Source: a virus. From it: a stretch of DNA of 21,878 nucleotides. The notes below the pieces were generated by a model that saw only the letters and a program-made list of their open reading frames with translations, was not told the DNA's origin and made no database searches. Numbering within the stretch: position 1 is the stretch's first letter; every line of letters starts with the position of its first letter. Of the stretch, positions 7,957-15,268 are shown one piece after another. The position numbers and the translations under genes were made by a program. The stretch is from IMG/VR virus record IMGVR_UViG_3300025132_000355, positions 1-21,878 of that record; one strand, 5' to 3'.

Positions 7957-8297
7957 TATGTTACTACCTCTCTTGGCTGTATTTCTAATATTGAAGCTAT
8001 GACGTGCAGCTCATTCGCGTCAGCGGCTTGTACTTTTAGTACTTCACTTTCCTCCATTACTAGAGGCTGAGTTAAAAGTTCTGTTGTAGCATTTGATGCA
8101 ATAGATTTGGTTTTAAATAAACTAAATATAGTTCCACTAGAATTAACCAATGTTACAGTAATTGTAGTTCCTGATCCAGCATCCTCGGATACTAACAATG
8201 ATTTAACAACAGCCGTTTTAAAATTAGGCACAGTATATAATGTGGTAAGATCTGTTGTCGTTAAATCTGCTTTTTTATTTATAAAACTATTAGCCAT
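7956..8297 (-). CDS. Small beta-sandwich virion protein
   Basis: This 113-aa protein is rich in Thr, Ser and Val in alternating patterns, which suggests an all-beta fold. It has no catalytic motif, signal peptide or Cys. It shares layout with the 119-aa protein at 15294-15653: an early beta strand followed by a D-G/S turn (VSEDAGSG here, ISNDDGTN there), then an acidic 'L/I-x-x-x-A' strand, ending in 'V-x-x-x-E-(I/L)'. That suggests two related decoration or fibre-cap proteins. It overlaps both neighbours by TAATG. Likely structural; the exact virion position is unknown. Confidence 0.55.
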   Translation of the reverse strand: MANSFINKKADLTTTDLTTLYTVPNFKTAVVKSLLVSEDAGSGTTITVTLVNSSGTIFSLFKTKSIASNATTELLTQPLVMEESEVLKVQAADANELHVIASILEIQPREVVT

Positions 8298-8461
8298 TAT
8301 TGTAAAAAGAAGTTAAATGCTTCTACCTCTTGTTTTAGTTCTTCTTGAAACGTTGTATTTAATTTTTCTACAATTGCATCAAGATCTCTAACTTGTGCTT
8401 CTGCAGTTGATAAATCATATTGTTTTGCTGGTCTTGTTAATACCTGTACTATTTTTGCCAT
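8297..8461 (-). CDS. Small coiled-coil protein, 54 aa
   Basis: The reading frame begins MAKIVQVLTRPAKQYD and ends EVEAFNFFLQ. It is joined at both ends by TAATG overlaps, to the nozzle gene upstream and to the 113-aa gene downstream, which strongly supports it being real. The segment after residue 18 is one acidic/basic amphipathic helix with heptad-like Leu, Ile and Val spacing (AQVRDLDAIVEKL), so a coiled coil is likely, with a hydrophobic FNFFLQ tail. Function unknown; a minor tail or assembly protein is the simplest idea. There are no Cys and no membrane segment. Confidence 0.65.
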   Translation of the reverse strand: MAKIVQVLTRPAKQYDLSTAEAQVRDLDAIVEKLNTTFQEELKQEVEAFNFFLQ

Positions 8462-10665
8462 TATCTTCTTCCGTCCGGTTGTGTGTCTAATCTAAATGTT
8501 CCTAACTTCCAATTTTGAGAAGTCGAAGTATTTGCTACTTTTAATGCAATTGCTCTAGCCCTAGCTCTTGTATCAACCTTTTTTGTAGATGAAGTAATTG
8601 TAAAAGGTCCTAATGATGAGCTAGTTTGAGAATCATTTGGATAATCTCTTAATTGTAAAGTAATCTGTGTGTTCCCTGTTTGAGATATAAAATCTGGAAC
8701 AAACCTTCTTATCTTCATTAAGTATTCACCGTCTCCTCTAAAGTCTGAAGTACCTGATGTTTGTCCTTGAGCTAGTCTCTGTGTAATATCAAAATCTCCT
8801 GATTCAATACTAGCTGTTATAGCTGTAATCGTTCCATTTTTATTTTGATCAGTTCCTGTTTCATGTTCATAGTATGAAGTTCTACCTTCTGTGTTTCCTT
8901 TTACATCAAAAGATGTATCGGTGTCTGCATCATAAGATAATGCATGGGGTAAACCAAACACAGCAGAGTCTCTCCACATTGTTCTAGCTAAAGATCCAAT
9001 AGTCCAAACAGGTCTTTGAGGAGAAGAGTCAAAATAATTATATGCAACCATTCTGTTTACAACAGAAGATGTAGAGGTTGGATAAAACCAAATTATTTCT
9101 CCAAATAAATTATTTAAACCTGCAGATATCATTTGGTTACCAGAGTCTAAATTTATATCGTCATAAACATAATCCTCTACTAAACAATGTAGTGATTCTA
9201 GCTTACCAGCATATCTAAAGAAACCATTCTCTGACATCCAGTATGCAGCACCATCAACTTCAATACATGCATTCTGACCTGTTAATCCACAGTTGGTTCC
9301 AACTTGTGCGAATGCAAAAGTAAAAGGTTGACCAACAAAACGTTGTGTAAATAAAGCTGTATCAGTCCAAACATAAATTGCATCACGACCTCTGATTGCT
9401 CCTCTGATCTGTGATCCATCGGCCAGTCTTTGTGTACCAGCGGTATTGGTTGCTGTAGGTGTGTATGTATTTATATCTTCTTGGTCCGAGAATCTAATAA
9501 ACATATCATCCTGAGTACTCGTATCCCCTATTGTAGTTTCTGTTCCAAAAAATACTAAGTGACGATCCGGTGTCGATACAACCATATGTCTTGATGCAGT
9601 TGGCGCACCAGATATAATTGTAGCTCTTGTTTCGTTTGCATTTGATAAACTTGAATCCCATTCAAAACATGCACTGTCATGAATTAAACAAATAGCTTTA
9701 TCACCAAAATTATCTAATGACCACATGCCTGGTTCTAATACTAAGTCTCCTGATGCTGCTTCTCCCCACGCAACATAATCTGAAGAGTTTGTAACGGTTG
9801 CACCATCACTATGAGCAGCTCTTGTAGAGTTTCTTACTGCTCTAGTAATACCTGTTAAATTATTTCCAGAAACACCTGTGTAAGATATTTCTTCTGTTCC
9901 TACCTGAATATAATTAGTCCCTGAACTTGGAAACTGTGAAGCGTCTGTTAAAGTTATAGAAGTCCCTGATCCACCTGTTCCTGCAGTATCATTTAATAAT
10001 GCACCATTTAAAGTAGTTGTTAATGCTGAGGTATCTTCTCCACCCCAAGATCCAAGACCCCAACCAAAACCTTTTGCTTGCACTGCTGGTCCTACAGGAT
10101 AATAATGCTGTACTCTAATTCCTCCTGATGTTGTTGCACCAGAACCTGATTCATTTGAAGGCATTGTAATTGTTAAAGTAGTAGCCGTAGGGACAGTTGT
10201 TACCATAAATTTTATATCGTCAAAATCACTAGCTCCAAAGTTAGATCCAGTAATTGTACTAAAATTATCTAATAAAATTATATCTTGAGGATTTATATTG
10301 TGAGAAGTGCTGAAAGTTATTGTAACAGTTGGTGATCCATTGGTTGTACTAAAAGCACTCGTTAAAGTTGTAGTGCTTTTAATAGGGTGAATGTCATAAA
10401 AGACTCCCCCTGAATATGCGTATAAAATTCTGTTTGTACCAATAATAGAATATTTTCTAGCTCCACTATTTATAAAATGGTGAAGCCCTCTTCCTGCACC
10501 TGTTAATTCGTTTGATCCCGATCCGCCTAGCTGATTCCATCCTCCTATTTTCTCAGGAGAATTATATCTAAACCTAACATTATCGCAGTTAACCCATTGG
10601 CCTTCGGCGGTTGTTGGTGTTATCTGTTTATTTATACCTGGCTGAAATCCTATTTTTTGTAGCAT
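8461..10665 (-). CDS. Tail nozzle / packaged-DNA stabilisation protein (P22 gp10-like, T7 gp12-like)
   Basis: This 734-aa protein opens with MLQKIGFQPGINKQ and continues through WVNCDNVRFRYNSPEKIGGW, the hallmark start of the phage stabilisation protein family (P22 gp10), whose beta-propeller forms the tail nozzle and plugs the portal channel after packaging. Residues about 110-290 are two inserted beta-rich segments, one containing a TEEISYTG turn found in many phage proteins. The rest is repeating beta strands with W and Y, as expected of a propeller. It would bind the gp4-like adaptor encoded at 20016-20765. The length is greater than P22 gp10 because of the insertions. The ribosome binding site is GAAGGG, and a promoter-like sequence lies just upstream. 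Confidence 0.75.
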   Translation of the reverse strand: MLQKIGFQPGINKQITPTTAEGQWVNCDNVRFRYNSPEKIGGWNQLGGSGSNELTGAGRGLHHFINSGARKYSIIGTNRILYAYSGGVFYDIHPIKSTTTLTSAFSTTNGSPTVTITFSTSHNINPQDIILLDNFSTITGSNFGASDFDDIKFMVTTVPTATTLTITMPSNESGSGATTSGGIRVQHYYPVGPAVQAKGFGWGLGSWGGEDTSALTTTLNGALLNDTAGTGGSGTSITLTDASQFPSSGTNYIQVGTEEISYTGVSGNNLTGITRAVRNSTRAAHSDGATVTNSSDYVAWGEAASGDLVLEPGMWSLDNFGDKAICLIHDSACFEWDSSLSNANETRATIISGAPTASRHMVVSTPDRHLVFFGTETTIGDTSTQDDMFIRFSDQEDINTYTPTATNTAGTQRLADGSQIRGAIRGRDAIYVWTDTALFTQRFVGQPFTFAFAQVGTNCGLTGQNACIEVDGAAYWMSENGFFRYAGKLESLHCLVEDYVYDDINLDSGNQMISAGLNNLFGEIIWFYPTSTSSVVNRMVAYNYFDSSPQRPVWTIGSLARTMWRDSAVFGLPHALSYDADTDTSFDVKGNTEGRTSYYEHETGTDQNKNGTITAITASIESGDFDITQRLAQGQTSGTSDFRGDGEYLMKIRRFVPDFISQTGNTQITLQLRDYPNDSQTSSSLGPFTITSSTKKVDTRARARAIALKVANTSTSQNWKLGTFRLDTQPDGRR

Positions 10666-10769: not shown

Positions 10770-11378
10770 TTATTTTATATCCTTTGGAGGAACAAAATGA
10801 AGCCACCCTGTTACAATATATTTTTCATACTTTTCTGAAATCTGCCCTCTATGCATATGTGTCCATTCTGCTGGCCATATTAGTGTTAAACCTTTTTTAG
10901 CAGGGGTCGTTACTTTTTGATATGAAAAATTAGTGCCTCCATCTTCAACGTCATTTAAATAAGTCATAAATACCAAAACTCTATCAGCACAATGATATGA
11001 TCCTCTTTCACAATGCTCGTGAAAGAACCCTTCTTTAGGTTTATAATACTGAACGTTATATTCCTTAACCAAGCCTATTTGATCTAAACCTGTATAAATT
11101 CCGACGTAATATTTTTTTTGATATTCTTGTAAACATTTCAAAAGTTCTTTTTCATAAGTAATGAAAGGCTCTCCGAATTGTGGCCTTACAGTTAAGTCTG
11201 TAGATTTTTTTTTATTTTGATCACTATTCTCTCCTCCTTTATTCAAAGTGTAAAGCGCCCCTTTATGTTTCCAAAAATCTGGTGTTTGATTATAGAATTT
11301 AATTAAATCATCACAAAGTTTAGGGTTAATAAACCATCCCCCCATAAAAGTTTCTTTCTTTAGTTTGTATTCTTTCAT
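10770..11378 (-). CDS. 2OG-Fe(II) oxygenase-like protein 4, HxE type
   Basis: This 202-aa protein has a double-stranded beta-helix signature. An iron site is expected at H122 and E124 (HCE within FFHEHCERG), with distal H174 in WPAEWTHMHRG. A basic residue near the 2-oxoglutarate pocket may be K186, in EKYIVTGW. The block LIWPAEWTHMHRG...YIVTGWLHF matches a 2OG-Fe(II) oxygenase subfamily common in cyanophages and marine phages. Such enzymes hydroxylate a substrate using oxygen and 2-oxoglutarate. The substrate is unknown; neighbours suggest virion fibre proteins or a host surface component. It starts with a TAATG overlap with the previous oxygenase gene and ends the array. Confidence 0.7.
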   Translation of the reverse strand: MKEYKLKKETFMGGWFINPKLCDDLIKFYNQTPDFWKHKGALYTLNKGGENSDQNKKKSTDLTVRPQFGEPFITYEKELLKCLQEYQKKYYVGIYTGLDQIGLVKEYNVQYYKPKEGFFHEHCERGSYHCADRVLVFMTYLNDVEDGGTNFSYQKVTTPAKKGLTLIWPAEWTHMHRGQISEKYEKYIVTGWLHFVPPKDIK

Positions 11379-11926
11379 TAATTTTTTTTTGATATGTCTC
11401 CAGATATTAAATTAAAATTTACATTTAACTTTAATTTTGTATCTGTTTGAAAGACAGGTTGATGAGGGATATCTCCTGAAAAAACTATCAGGGTATTTTC
11501 TTTAGCTGGGACAAATAAAGGCTCTTCTTTATGAAAAATAGTTCCTCCGTTACATGTGTTTATAGAGTAAAGGGCGGCTACATGTTTAAATTCTTGATCT
11601 GTATGTTTAAAACCTTTTAAATTTTCTGGCTGTCTAGGATAGCAATTAACTTTAGCTCTATGTAAAGCAAGCTGATAAAGATGGTTATTTAATTGGCTAA
11701 ACTCAGGCATCGTTTTTATTTTATTAAAAATAACATCTGCTATACCAAAGAAGTTACTAGATTTTCTACCCTCTATATAAAGATGATGAGCAAAAAAAAA
11801 TTGAGTTTCTTTTCTTTCTTCTGATACTTCATCTTCATAGAAGTAAGGAAAATAAGAAGAACGTACTACTTTATTTAAGTCCTTTACTTGATCAATAGGT
11901 AAAAAGTTTTCAATTATTTCTAACAT
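11378..11926 (-). CDS. 2OG-Fe(II) oxygenase-like protein 3, HTD type
   Basis: With the start at 11926 (MLEIIENFLP) the protein is 182 aa. A start upstream at 11983 would overlap the previous gene by 55 bases and add a basic leader, so the shorter form is preferred: it begins two bases after the upstream stop. Metal ligands are H108 and D110 (FKHTDQE) and H155 (SGDIPHQP). The usual 2-oxoglutarate-binding Arg is replaced by Lys (K164 or K166 in TDTKLKLNVNF). The fold and spacing are those of the 2OG-Fe(II) oxygenase superfamily (small PHD-like type). It probably hydroxylates a protein or a small molecule; the substrate is unknown. An internal GGTIFHKEE segment is typical of the turn between the core strands. 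Confidence 0.7.
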   Translation of the reverse strand: MLEIIENFLPIDQVKDLNKVVRSSYFPYFYEDEVSEERKETQFFFAHHLYIEGRKSSNFFGIADVIFNKIKTMPEFSQLNNHLYQLALHRAKVNCYPRQPENLKGFKHTDQEFKHVAALYSINTCNGGTIFHKEEPLFVPAKENTLIVFSGDIPHQPVFQTDTKLKLNVNFNLISGDISKKN

Positions 11927-11928
11927 AT

Positions 11929-12618
11929 CTATAACCCTTCTGTAAAAGGAATATCGCCGGGCCTTTCCCATACCCCTAAACATTGTCTGCCATCGTATAA
12001 GAGTTTTTTATTAAGTGCAGTCGCTTCGACAAAATGTAAAAAGACTTGCCCACATTCATTACCATTAAAGGGCTCTCTCCAATGTTCTAAAATATCTCCA
12101 CGATAAACTAATAGATCTCCTGGTGTTAAATTTATTTTAACGCCTTTGTTAGTGGTTTCCATAGTAGCGCCGTTTTCACCTGGTCGTCCTATATTTTTTT
12201 TTGGTTCTAAAAATATTGGCCACTCATCTCCTCCTAAATTTAAAGTAGTAGAAAAGGCACACTCAGGTCTATCTTTATGTCTTTTTAAAACATCCCACTT
12301 TGTATAAAGTCTAGCATAAGAATATGTAGGGAGTAATTTTAAACCAGTTTCTTTTTCAAGAATAGGTTGTACTAATAATAATAAAGTATCAAAGGTAGGA
12401 GTTCCATATATACAAAAAGTTTTTGGGTTATTTTGAACCTGCGGATCTCCAAATCTACCAATTCTCCAATTTTCATAAGGAGAAACAAATCTTTCTTTTT
12501 TAGCGACAACTGCCACTTGTCTTTTTACAATAAAATAATTGTATAAGAAAATAGCTAACTCTCTGCTTATTGCACTTTTTATAAGGGAGTAGTTATTTTT
12601 TTTAAATGTTTTTTTCAT
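11929..12618 (-). CDS. 2OG-Fe(II) oxygenase-like protein 2
   Basis: This 229-aa protein belongs to a phage family I recognise by LKRHKDRPECAFSTTLNLGG and by the later GDLLVYRGDILEHWRE. The likely iron ligands are H114, D116 and H179. No Arg sits at the usual spacing after H179; the chain runs CGQVFLHFV instead, so co-substrate binding may differ from classic members. Because the ligand triad is intact, activity is plausible. It begins inside the stop of the preceding gene (ATGA overlap) and lies in the middle of the oxygenase array, so the enzymes are made together. Its substrate cannot be read from sequence. Confidence 0.65.
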   Translation of the reverse strand: MKKTFKKNNYSLIKSAISRELAIFLYNYFIVKRQVAVVAKKERFVSPYENWRIGRFGDPQVQNNPKTFCIYGTPTFDTLLLLVQPILEKETGLKLLPTYSYARLYTKWDVLKRHKDRPECAFSTTLNLGGDEWPIFLEPKKNIGRPGENGATMETTNKGVKINLTPGDLLVYRGDILEHWREPFNGNECGQVFLHFVEATALNKKLLYDGRQCLGVWERPGDIPFTEGL

Positions 12619-13247
12619 TTAAATTTTGGTCCTTGACACCATCCTACCAAAGAAAGTCTTTGGCCTCTAATAACGGGGGTTACTTTATGCCACAAAAACG
12701 AAGGAAAAAGAGTAAGCGTTCCTTTTTTAAGAGATTTATCAGAAAATAAAATACTTTCATTTTTATCAAAAGGACTTTCTTTTTGTTTAGGGTTAGAATT
12801 GTAAATTAAAAGCTGACCTCCGCTATATTCTTCTGGATCTGACAGCTGTATAGTAAAAGACAGTTTTCTTTTTCCAAAATAATTATCACTTTCAGGATCA
12901 GAATCCGTATGCCAAGTGTAGTGTTGATTACTATTATACATAGTAAATTGTATTTTCTCTAACATATCTAGATCAAAGTTCCATGCTGCCTGTTTATTTC
13001 CTTCCATAATAGCAGTTATTATTTCAACACTTATCCACGGTTCATCTAAAAAAGAAACAGTAGAGTCTCTCATTTCTTTTTGTTTTTTTATTTTTTCCTT
13101 AGTCCATTCTTTATTTGATGCATATTCACTAAATTCTCCGGTTGTTGCCATAAGTTTATTGGTAGCCATACCAAAAGCTATAACCTCGTTACAAAAAGAT
13201 TTTGAAAAAGCATCGGGTATACACCAGAAATTATTTTTACTAAACAT
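12615..13247 (-). CDS. 2OG-Fe(II) oxygenase (prolyl-4-hydroxylase / PKHD type)
   Basis: This 210-aa protein is the clearest oxygenase of the set. It has H113-T-D115 in YTWHTDSDPE, distal H187 in FLWHKVTP, and R197 ten residues later in RGQRLSLVGWC, which is the H-x-D...H...R/K pattern of Fe(II)/2-oxoglutarate dioxygenases. The strand SFTIQLSDPEEYSGGQLLIY is the typical P4Hc strand and turn. It would hydroxylate a protein or peptide residue using 2-oxoglutarate and O2. The start directly abuts the stop of the 181-aa gene (TAAATG), so the two are translated together. The similarity to PKHD-type hydroxylases (PiuC family) is by motif, not by alignment. Confidence 0.8.
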   Translation of the reverse strand: MFSKNNFWCIPDAFSKSFCNEVIAFGMATNKLMATTGEFSEYASNKEWTKEKIKKQKEMRDSTVSFLDEPWISVEIITAIMEGNKQAAWNFDLDMLEKIQFTMYNSNQHYTWHTDSDPESDNYFGKRKLSFTIQLSDPEEYSGGQLLIYNSNPKQKESPFDKNESILFSDKSLKKGTLTLFPSFLWHKVTPVIRGQRLSLVGWCQGPKFK

Positions 13248-13793
13248 TTATCTACCTAATCTATATTTTACAATAGATCTTTGATTAGTAGCTGGAGTAA
13301 AATAATACTCTAAATTACTATTGAATACAAACCACTCATTATTTTTTATTTCATGAGTCCATTTTTTATCCAGGGCTTTATTATCTGGGCATTCTATAAT
13401 TAACCTGTCTTTTGATTCTATATCGCTTTCTGCTAAACAAGATATGTAAAGTAGAGTAAACTCTGGACCATTTTGAATATTAACTGAATTCATGTCTTTT
13501 AATTTAAGAGTACCCTGTCCCTTTTGATGGTACATGACTCTAGGGCCTTCTAAAGCCGAAACAAATAATTTTTCTTTAAGGTGTAATTGACTTGAAATAT
13601 ATTTAAAAACTTTATCAATTTCTATTTCGTAAGGAATTAACATTCCTTCTTCAGGGGCAAAGATTTTATTTGAATCATTTAATTCAAATCTTTCTACTAT
13701 AAATTGATGAATATAACCCTGTCGTACATTTGTAGTATGTAAAGGAATCTCTCCCGTATATAAATTACTTTCTATAAGTTTTATTTTATTCAT
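13248..13793 (-). CDS. Hypothetical protein, possibly a degenerate double-stranded beta-helix protein
   Basis: I do not recognise this 181-aa protein with confidence. Its last third, WFVFNSNLEYYFTPATNQRS followed by IVKYRLG, resembles the C-terminal strand pair of 2OG oxygenases (…H-x-V-x-P…x-R-x-S-I-x-x-x…), but the position of the distal His is occupied by Phe or Tyr. The earlier candidate site HQK (H89-Q90-K91) lacks the Asp/Glu. If the fold is right, the metal site is lost and the protein could be a non-catalytic partner or substrate-binding member of the array. It is first in the oxygenase module, with no visible ribosome binding site and a start codon inside a potential hairpin. It ends by abutting the next gene. 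Confidence 0.4.
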   Translation of the reverse strand: MNKIKLIESNLYTGEIPLHTTNVRQGYIHQFIVERFELNDSNKIFAPEEGMLIPYEIEIDKVFKYISSQLHLKEKLFVSALEGPRVMYHQKGQGTLKLKDMNSVNIQNGPEFTLLYISCLAESDIESKDRLIIECPDNKALDKKWTHEIKNNEWFVFNSNLEYYFTPATNQRSIVKYRLGR

Positions 13794-13825
13794 ACTGTAT
13801 ACAAAGTATGTTTTACAACATACTT
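13791..13825 (-). promoter_or_regulatory. Inverted repeat able to form two alternative hairpins, overlapping a start codon
   Basis: On the minus strand, AAGTATGTT-GTAA-AACATACTT (13825-13804) is a perfect 9-bp inverted repeat with a 4-base loop. The second arm can instead pair through CATACT with AGTATG at 13796-13791, which contains the ATG of the 181-aa gene (loop of 8 bases). The two structures exclude each other: the first leaves the start codon free and the second hides it. The repeat could equally be a DNA operator, since it overlaps the -10 of a candidate promoter. The repeats are read directly from the sequence; any switching role is inference. Confidence 0.5.
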
Positions 13826-13838
13826 AAAAAACTGTCAA
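13810..13838 (-). promoter_or_regulatory. Candidate sigma70-type promoter of the oxygenase module
   Basis: On the minus strand, TTGACA (complement of 13833-13838) is a perfect -35 consensus lying directly after the stop codon of the 160-aa gene. After 17 bases comes TAAAAC (complement of 13810-13815), which matches four of six -10 positions. Transcription would start near 13800-13804, leaving almost no leader before the ATG at 13793 and matching the lack of a ribosome binding site there. The inverted repeat covers the spacer and the -10, as an operator would. Confidence 0.45.
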
Positions 13839-14323: not shown

Positions 14324-15268
14324 TTATTGGTACCTATACCTTATCATAACAATTCCGGCTGCACCAGTTCCTGCAGGGTTTGTTGGACCGTGTGTTCCTG
14401 CACCACCTGATCCTGAATTTTCTATACCATCTCCACCGGCATAAGATCCTCCACTTCGAACCATACCACCGCCGACACATTGACCACCTAGTGCTCCTGG
14501 ACCACCGCCGCCACCGCCAGCAGAAAAAAAAGCTCCACCACCGTCTCCTGCATTTGTAGGAGTACAAATTGCTGCTGGTCCTCCACCAGCTATTTGACAT
14601 AAAATTCCTTGACCAGCACCAACGCCAGATATTCCTATAGTCATTGGACCTGTACACATAGCTCCACCACCACCGTTAGGGGCTCCATTAGTTCCTTGAG
14701 GGGGACTAACAGGAGGTGTATTTCCTGCACCGCCAGCATGAGGAGGCAATCTTCCTGCACCGCCTCCAGAGGCACCAGCACTACCAGCGCCATTTGAATT
14801 TCCATTTCCACCACCAGCAGATGTAATATTTGAAAAAGTTGAAGTACCACCAGCAGCTCCAACTGTTATTGGATATGATCCTGGACTTGCAGAAACAGGG
14901 AGTAAAGCTCCAGAAGCTAAGGGATCAGGGAAAGCAAAACCGGAAGCTCTATATCCGCCTCCGCCGCCTCCGCCAGCAAATCCTAAATTTCCAGAATTAC
15001 CCGCACCGCCGCCACCACCAACAACTACATAATCAACACCAGCACTTTCCGGAGCTCCGGAACCTACTGCGTTTACTGTAAGAGTTGCTGAGGATTTAAA
15101 AACGTGAATTTTGTAATCACCAATCGTTAAAGTTTCATCACCACCAGAAGCTGAAATGTAATTTCCACCCGCAGATCCTGAAGAAGCAGAGTAAACTCTT
15201 CCGCTAGAATCAACAGATAAATCAGTTAATGTAAAATCTCCTTTTGATGGTTTAATTATTTTAGGCAT
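14324..15268 (-). CDS. Glycine-rich tail-fibre adhesin / receptor-binding protein
   Basis: This 314-aa protein has a short N-terminal part (about 1-82) with beta strands (DYKIHVFKSSATLTV), followed by YVVVGGGGGAG and then about 215 residues dominated by Gly runs with Ala, Ser, Pro and Asn. It closes with IVMIRYRYQ. This is the architecture of the phage glycine-rich domain family, in which polyglycine type II helices bundle, as in the gp38 adhesin at the tip of T2/S16 long tail fibres. The likely job is host recognition at the fibre tip. The Gly/Pro content (for example PPVSPPQGTNGAP) could also make it a substrate for the neighbouring oxygenases, which is speculation. A strong AAGGAGG site precedes the start. 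Confidence 0.7.
   Translation of the reverse strand: MPKIIKPSKGDFTLTDLSVDSSGRVYSASSGSAGGNYISASGGDETLTIGDYKIHVFKSSATLTVNAVGSGAPESAGVDYVVVGGGGGAGNSGNLGFAGGGGGGGYRASGFAFPDPLASGALLPVSASPGSYPITVGAAGGTSTFSNITSAGGGNGNSNGAGSAGASGGGAGRLPPHAGGAGNTPPVSPPQGTNGAPNGGGGAMCTGPMTIGISGVGAGQGILCQIAGGGPAAICTPTNAGDGGGAFFSAGGGGGGPGALGGQCVGGGMVRSGGSYAGGDGIENSGSGGAGTHGPTNPAGTGAAGIVMIRYRYQ

Follow-up and report, generated by a model that had tools for sequence, protein, structure and literature searches.

Eight non-orthologous, co-located 2-oxoglutarate (2OG) oxygenases have been described in HTVC023P-type pelagiphages, together with partner 'ferrochelatases' (Wittmers et al. 2022, PMC9599517), the oxygenases being placed nearby 'although not adjacent'. 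The families phrog61 and phrog2954 have been found enriched in seasonal viruses (PMC11561400) and T4-GC 615 has been listed as 'Hyp. with ferrochetalase domain' (PMC3037559). Here we analyse a related cassette in a 21.9-kb virus contig (IMG/VR record IMGVR_UViG_3300025132_000355, positions 1-21,878, the window), where five consecutive genes, g5, g4, g3, g2 and g1 in downstream order, occupy positions 10770-13793 of the minus strand within the structural gene block. The resemblance to the HTVC023P-type clusters lies in the phage group, in several non-orthologous, co-located 2OG oxygenases and in a g3-type gene beside them. In the window, however, the genes are directly adjacent, g3 itself is predicted to have the oxygenase fold and a putative pseudo-oxygenase leads the set.

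Other systems share some of these features. In the Pelagibacter myophages Mosig EXVC030M and HTVC008M, six and five 2OG-type genes, respectively, are directly adjacent to one another, beside tail/neck genes. Both runs include g3- and g4-type genes, to which a g2-type is added in Mosig and a g1-type in HTVC008M, but these phages belong to another family and a conservative g5 profile recognises no g5-type lead gene in them. The two myophage clusters (L138:10984-12220, L139:290-2249) lie beside or near other enzyme genes, in Mosig those for heme oxygenase and phycocyanobilin reductase, in HTVC008M those for tryptophan halogenase and phytanoyl-CoA dioxygenase. Cyanophage S-SCSM1 also carries many divergent 2OG oxygenases, 24 genes with ORFs (open reading frames) numbered 16 to 249 (PMC9602691), although in the part of that account available they are not described as one cassette, nor is a pseudo-oxygenase. 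With respect to fold and the triad of g1-g4, prolyl 4-hydroxylases (P4H), PHD2 and the PKHD-type enzymes PiuC and YbiX are similar and supply the nearest solved relatives of g1, g3, g4 and g5, but the fold matches are at about 20% identity or less, g5 is without metal ligands and g1 uses HxE. Finally, Fe/2OG hydroxylases tailor ribosomally synthesized and post-translationally modified peptides (RiPPs), for example CanE, a lasso peptide Asp hydroxylase (PMC9266682), and CorC of corallotide (PMC13097080). The likeness here is one of reaction and context, peptide hydroxylation and the presence of cellular g3 homologues in apparent RiPP clusters, whereas no precursor peptide is recognised in the phage cassette.

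Co-location of oxygenases in HTVC023P-type phages is therefore already published (PMC9599517). As far as our literature search goes, the new elements are the revised labels for g3 and g2, the recognition of g5 as a likely pseudo-oxygenase, the finding that the genes are adjacent and how often this is so, the place of the promoter-like site and the link to peptide clusters, and no functional data were found in that literature for any phage member.

The oxygenase genes and two public labels

The initial annotation had placed four tandem 2OG-Fe(II) oxygenase genes in this interval, joined by ATGA, TAG-AT-ATG and TAATG junctions, and all four are there, on the minus strand, with those junctions. 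It had left out the fifth gene, g5, which is apparently catalytically dead. The motif positions it gave hold for g4, g3 and g2 and, in g1, for H122 and E124. The distal histidine of g1 is H176 rather than H174, as judged by conservation: the former is kept throughout the family, the latter is not.

By motif and profile, g1-g4 are assigned to the 2OG-Fe(II) oxygenase superfamily and to different subfamilies within it, P4H-like, phrog_274, phrog_2954 and PKHD/PF13640, respectively, and all four retain the catalytic residues. g1 matches PF13640 (1.5e-8) and phrog_61, and its nearest solved structure is an algal prolyl 4-hydroxylase (E=8.5e-5). The triad, H122-x-E124...H176, is an HxE variant, and a conserved EKYIxTGW motif holds the probable 2OG anchor Lys. 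g4 is of PKHD-type, matching PF13640 at 9e-17 and phrog_61, with HTD at 113-115, distal H187 and R197. The last is the candidate residue to bind the C5-carboxylate of 2OG; a lysine would serve in g1 and in g2, an arginine in the relatives of g2. In g3 the usual position holds no obvious arginine; this protein has Arg181 and Gln191, both invariant, instead.

g2 matches phrog_274 at 8e-34. The ORF is open to 11983, but the translation start is most likely at 11926, as in relatives, so that HTD falls at residues 108-110 rather than 127-129 of the long ORF; the distal histidine is H155. Relatives keep HxD...H, mostly with a distal Arg where the g2 of the window has Lys. Iterated profiles connect g2 with g1 and g4 (hhalign g1-g2 82%); a phmmer comparison of g2 with the PDB gave merely meaningless weak matches. 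Motif and profile thus point to a 2OG oxygenase. The public label of phrog_274, 'DNA endonuclease V' (T4 DenV), looks wrong: the g2 of the window has no endonuclease Pfam match and HxD...H is conserved among its relatives, including the 'denV' of P-SSM7.

The label 'ferrochelatase' of phrog_2954, which g3 matches at 3e-42, also looks wrong. None of 101 g3-type members matches the ferrochelatase family PF00762 at E<=0.1. The motif is HKD at 114-116 with distal H179, and seven residues, His114, Asp116, Arg117, His179, Arg181, Gln191 and His195, are invariant across the 101 aligned sequences. An AlphaFold model of g3 (predicted local distance difference test, pLDDT, 87.7; predicted template modelling score, pTM, 0.85) gave 638 Foldseek matches in the PDB at E<=1e-3. 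The best 50 are all of the 2OG oxygenase superfamily and prolyl hydroxylases are the best fold matches, which agrees with the initial proposal of an oxygenase fold; PF13640 supports it for g1 and g4 and profiles do so for g2. The cyanophage 'ferrochelatases' of S-PM2, P-SSM7, S-SM1 and S-CAM8 retain HxDR and the distal His. Synechococcus phage S-SM1 (L144:301-1104) has two tandem 'ferrochelatase' genes (T4-GC 615), probably both 2OG oxygenases. We found no correction of the ferrochelatase label in the literature, though one GenBank record already carries both names. Both labels have been used in ecological work; as they appear wrong, what has been concluded from them about heme metabolism in viruses needs to be revised.

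g3-type genes also occur in cells, in apparent RiPP clusters beside PF13640 oxygenases (L180:2515-5450 and L195:1505-6995, Xanthomonas cannabis and Brevundimonas). The X. cannabis homologue adjoins an ORF for a 54-residue peptide, a radical-SAM enzyme and a PF13640 oxygenase; that of Brevundimonas adjoins HPr-kinase-like and asparagine-synthase genes.

Might the motif arise by chance, or the genes by local duplication? HxD/E...H is present in 482 of 612 family ORFs as against 75 of 608 other ORFs of equal length range, which rules out the former, and the profiles matched none of 2563 reversed decoys. No pair of the five cassette proteins matches in phmmer at E<=10, and each gene has closer relatives in other phages. 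Profile-profile links are strong between g1 and g4 (98%) and absent for g3. Local duplication is ruled out by these comparisons, as the initial annotation had argued from the divergence of the copies.

Recurrence, lead gene and transcription

To survey the locus, 80 contigs were picked solely by a relative of the nozzle protein, of which 51 extend for 6 kb or more on the side of the cassette; they are not independent of one another, and near-duplicates occur among them. At least two oxygenase-fold genes stand at the fibre-nozzle junction in 49 of the 51, and at least four in 35. In 19 at least four are directly adjacent, with runs of up to eleven. A g3-type gene is present in 43 and a g5-type gene in 11. 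Far from being a rarity, such cassettes are nearly universal in this abundant phage group and, as first proposed, the genes behave as a compact unit at that junction. Of the two things that the initial annotation had said would together refute it, ubiquity and prior characterisation, the survey largely bears out the first. The longest run, on a marine virus contig (L122:4085-9956), has eleven consecutive, mostly overlapping oxygenase-fold genes. A Pfam and PHROG scan of ten of these placed nine in 2OG families or phrog_274; the remaining one of the ten is g5-type, and the gene outside the scan is g3-type. Gene sets differ strongly among phages with nozzles some 80-98% identical to that of the window.

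Neither Pfam nor PHROGs gives a credible match for g5. Since its sequence profile found no match in the PDB, assignment of the fold relies on an AlphaFold model (pLDDT 86.9, pTM 0.86), on Foldseek, where the best PDB matches of the model are PHD2/P4H (E about 1e-5) with bacterial P4H and phage 2OG oxygenases also found, and on the PF13759 match (1.9e-14) of one relative, L075. In the family alignment (A1, 26 rows) the HxD...H of g5 is gone; Leu98, Asp100 and the Tyr163-Tyr164 region occupy the ligand columns. The metal triad is missing from the g5 of the window and from all aligned relatives except L075, which retains HxH and the distal His. Searches of viral contigs with g5 and g2 singly found only the near-identical contig L004, and tblastn of g5 in phage records gave no match; the g5 alignment is too divergent for use as a viral-contig query.

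Loss of the triad, and a gene missing from most relatives, might indicate the functionless product of a decaying pseudogene. However, the ratio of non-synonymous to synonymous substitution (dN/dS) is 0.12-0.37 in eight pairs, similar to g2-g4, so that g5 is under purifying selection; its length and position are conserved and the fold is predicted with confidence. We reject decay on the basis of dN/dS and regard it as extremely improbable. By model and motif g5 appears to be a selected oxygenase-fold protein that lost its iron site and is not an active oxygenase. In almost every g5 locus the gene comes immediately before a cassette oxygenase, g4 in most cases, and usually overlaps it by 1-14 bases; in L032-L034 g5 comes after g3 instead. 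g5 is probably a pseudo-oxygenase partner of a cassette enzyme, with g4 as the likeliest, since in most relatives its gene abuts that of g5 or overlaps it. With a conserved pseudo-oxygenase at the head of an active set, there is a tangible starting point for work on substrate and complex formation.

The cassette had been considered simply part of a tail operon, a view that did not survive comparison with relatives. A sequence TTGACA-17-TAAAAC, overlain by a palindrome, ends 16 bases upstream of the g5 start. Sites scoring at least 9/12 within 80 bases upstream precede 20 of 25 g5 genes, whereas random 80-mers drawn from these contigs lead one to expect 4.5 (at most 10 in any of 300 draws). For comparison, 23 of 106 g3 genes have such a site. 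A generic promoter scan of the region shows no excess (33 against 33.2 expected), hence the case for a promoter relies on position and recurrence across relatives. In addition the cassette has the reverse orientation with respect to the nozzle gene in L067, L082, L086, L096 and HTVC027P. Given the promoter-like site before g5 and these inversions, we consider the cassette to be a separate transcription module, movable as a block and with a putative promoter of its own.

Function and substrate

What might such a cassette modify? We propose that the five genes form a self-contained unit, with g1-g4 acting as Fe(II)/2OG oxygenases, transcribed from the putative promoter in front of g5. g5 would be kept as a non-catalytic partner that binds substrate or an enzyme, most plausibly g4. 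The enzymes would hydroxylate side chains of proteins or peptides, with the receptor-binding or fibre proteins of the phage itself as favoured substrates and a host protein second. Peptide or protein hydroxylation is the most likely activity because the fold is common to prolyl hydroxylases and because cellular g3 homologues lie in clusters resembling those for peptide tailoring. We put the chances of a protein-hydroxylating cassette with virion fibres as its favoured substrate at about even; the enzymatic activity, the g5-g4 partnership, the promoter function and the substrate are what we infer in this scheme.

Modification of the virion's own fibres, as suggested in the initial annotation, receives weak support. 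Cassette composition tracks the fibre genes over 57 loci (partial Mantel r=0.16, p=0.015, corrected for nozzle and downstream genes) and shows no correlation with the downstream genes (r=-0.02). Several points weigh against the proposal. The correlation with fibre genes is weak, and linkage or the joint transfer of neighbours could account for it. In cyanophages the homologues of g2 and g3 have unrelated neighbours (dam, clamp loader, Rnf-Nqr), which means that fibres cannot be the substrate throughout. For g3 the Foldseek template modelling (TM) scores are modest, 0.46-0.59 when normalised to the query for most top matches, g2 is read as an oxygenase from motif and profile, the RiPP assignment of the cellular clusters comes from gene content and the promoter-like site is weak or missing in some relatives. 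A further step, that a modular oxygenase stack with a dead adaptor hydroxylates the receptor-binding fibres combinatorially and differently from phage to phage, is offered tentatively. If true, it would mean post-translational diversification of fibres in one of the ocean's most abundant phage groups. A literature search for a phage prolyl hydroxylase acting on tail fibres found none.

The enzymes may instead be directed at the host. They would then modify a protein or glycan of its surface, or another of its proteins, for example a translation factor, so as to aid infection or exclude competitors. Foldseek neighbours of g3 and g5 include a Pseudomonas P4H solved in complex with EF-Tu, glycosyltransferases are encoded a few genes away in HTVC023P and HTVC027P, and control by a promoter of its own would free the cassette from the timing of the structural genes. 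Against this, gene sets vary among phages with nozzles close to that of the window beyond what a fixed host target would lead one to expect, and their composition is linked, albeit weakly, to fibre genes and not to those downstream. We judge a host target possible but doubtful. Published readings (PMC9599517, PMC11561400 and the 2OG level model of PMC3037559) favour auxiliary metabolic genes that draw down 2OG or work with ferrochelatase in iron/heme metabolism. The 'ferrochelatase', though, is without its Pfam family and has the predicted oxygenase fold with an invariant HxD...H, and bulk consumption of 2OG would not seem to require 2-11 divergent enzymes or a dead member, which makes a metabolic role unlikely. 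Some members, g3 above all, might be AlkB- or TET-like enzymes for the modification or repair of DNA or RNA. The AlkB-type family PF13532 is matched by six of the 101 g3-type members (best 6e-5), there is a weak profile match of g3 to a Naegleria Tet-like dioxygenase (E=0.04-0.06) and AlkB is among its Foldseek matches. Yet prolyl hydroxylases give the best fold matches, the cellular homologues belong to what look like peptide-tailoring clusters and the cassette is in the fibre region, not with replication genes; action on nucleic acid therefore appears quite improbable.

Gene layout and phage identity

The order in the downstream direction is fibre genes, a Gly-rich protein, a phrog_7759 protein, the cassette from g5 to g1 and the nozzle gene (Table 1). 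The phrog_7759 gene is directly upstream of the cassette in the window and in relatives, among them the SAR11 single-cell relative described below. The nozzle protein shares about 46% identity with its counterparts in HTVC023P, HTVC027P and 023Pt_psg01, and 83% with one encoded by a 62-kb contig (L149) of the SAR11 single-cell genome AG-404-L13, where the fibre-cassette-nozzle layout is as in the window. These identities and the shared layout suggest that the phage is an HTVC023P-type-like marine podovirus, probably with a SAR11 host.

Table 1. Features of the cassette and its flanks, in window coordinates
Feature	Position	Strand	Basis
g1: P4H-like 2OG-Fe(II) oxygenase (by motif and profile), PF13640, phrog_61, 202 aa	10770..11378	-	Pfam, PHROG, solved-structure match
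g2: predicted 2OG oxygenase of phrog_274 ('DNA endonuclease V'), 182 aa	11378..11926	-	PHROG, motif, profiles
g3: predicted 2OG-oxygenase-fold protein of phrog_2954 ('ferrochelatase'), 229 aa	11929..12618	-	PHROG, alignment, AlphaFold/Foldseek
g4: PKHD-type/PF13640 2OG oxygenase (by motif and profile), phrog_61, 210 aa	12615..13247	-	Pfam, PHROG
g5: putative pseudo-oxygenase, first cassette gene, abuts g4, 181 aa	13248..13793	-	AlphaFold/Foldseek, alignment
Promoter-like site of cassette: TTGACA 13838-13833, 17 nt, TAAAAC 13815-13810	13810..13838	-	Position kept in relatives
Palindrome AAGTATGT-TGTAAA-ACATACTT across spacer and -10	13804..13825	no strand	Possible operator
phrog_7759 protein, 160 aa	13839..14321	-	PHROG match
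Gly-rich fibre-region protein, PF21722, candidate substrate	14324..15268	-	Pfam match
Nozzle/stabilisation protein, phrog_3287; other flank, survey anchor	8461..10665	-	PHROG match

Between positions 8000 and 16600 of the window there are 11 terminator-like hairpins where 3.7 would be expected (sd 2.0); most are on the plus strand, the genes being on the minus strand.

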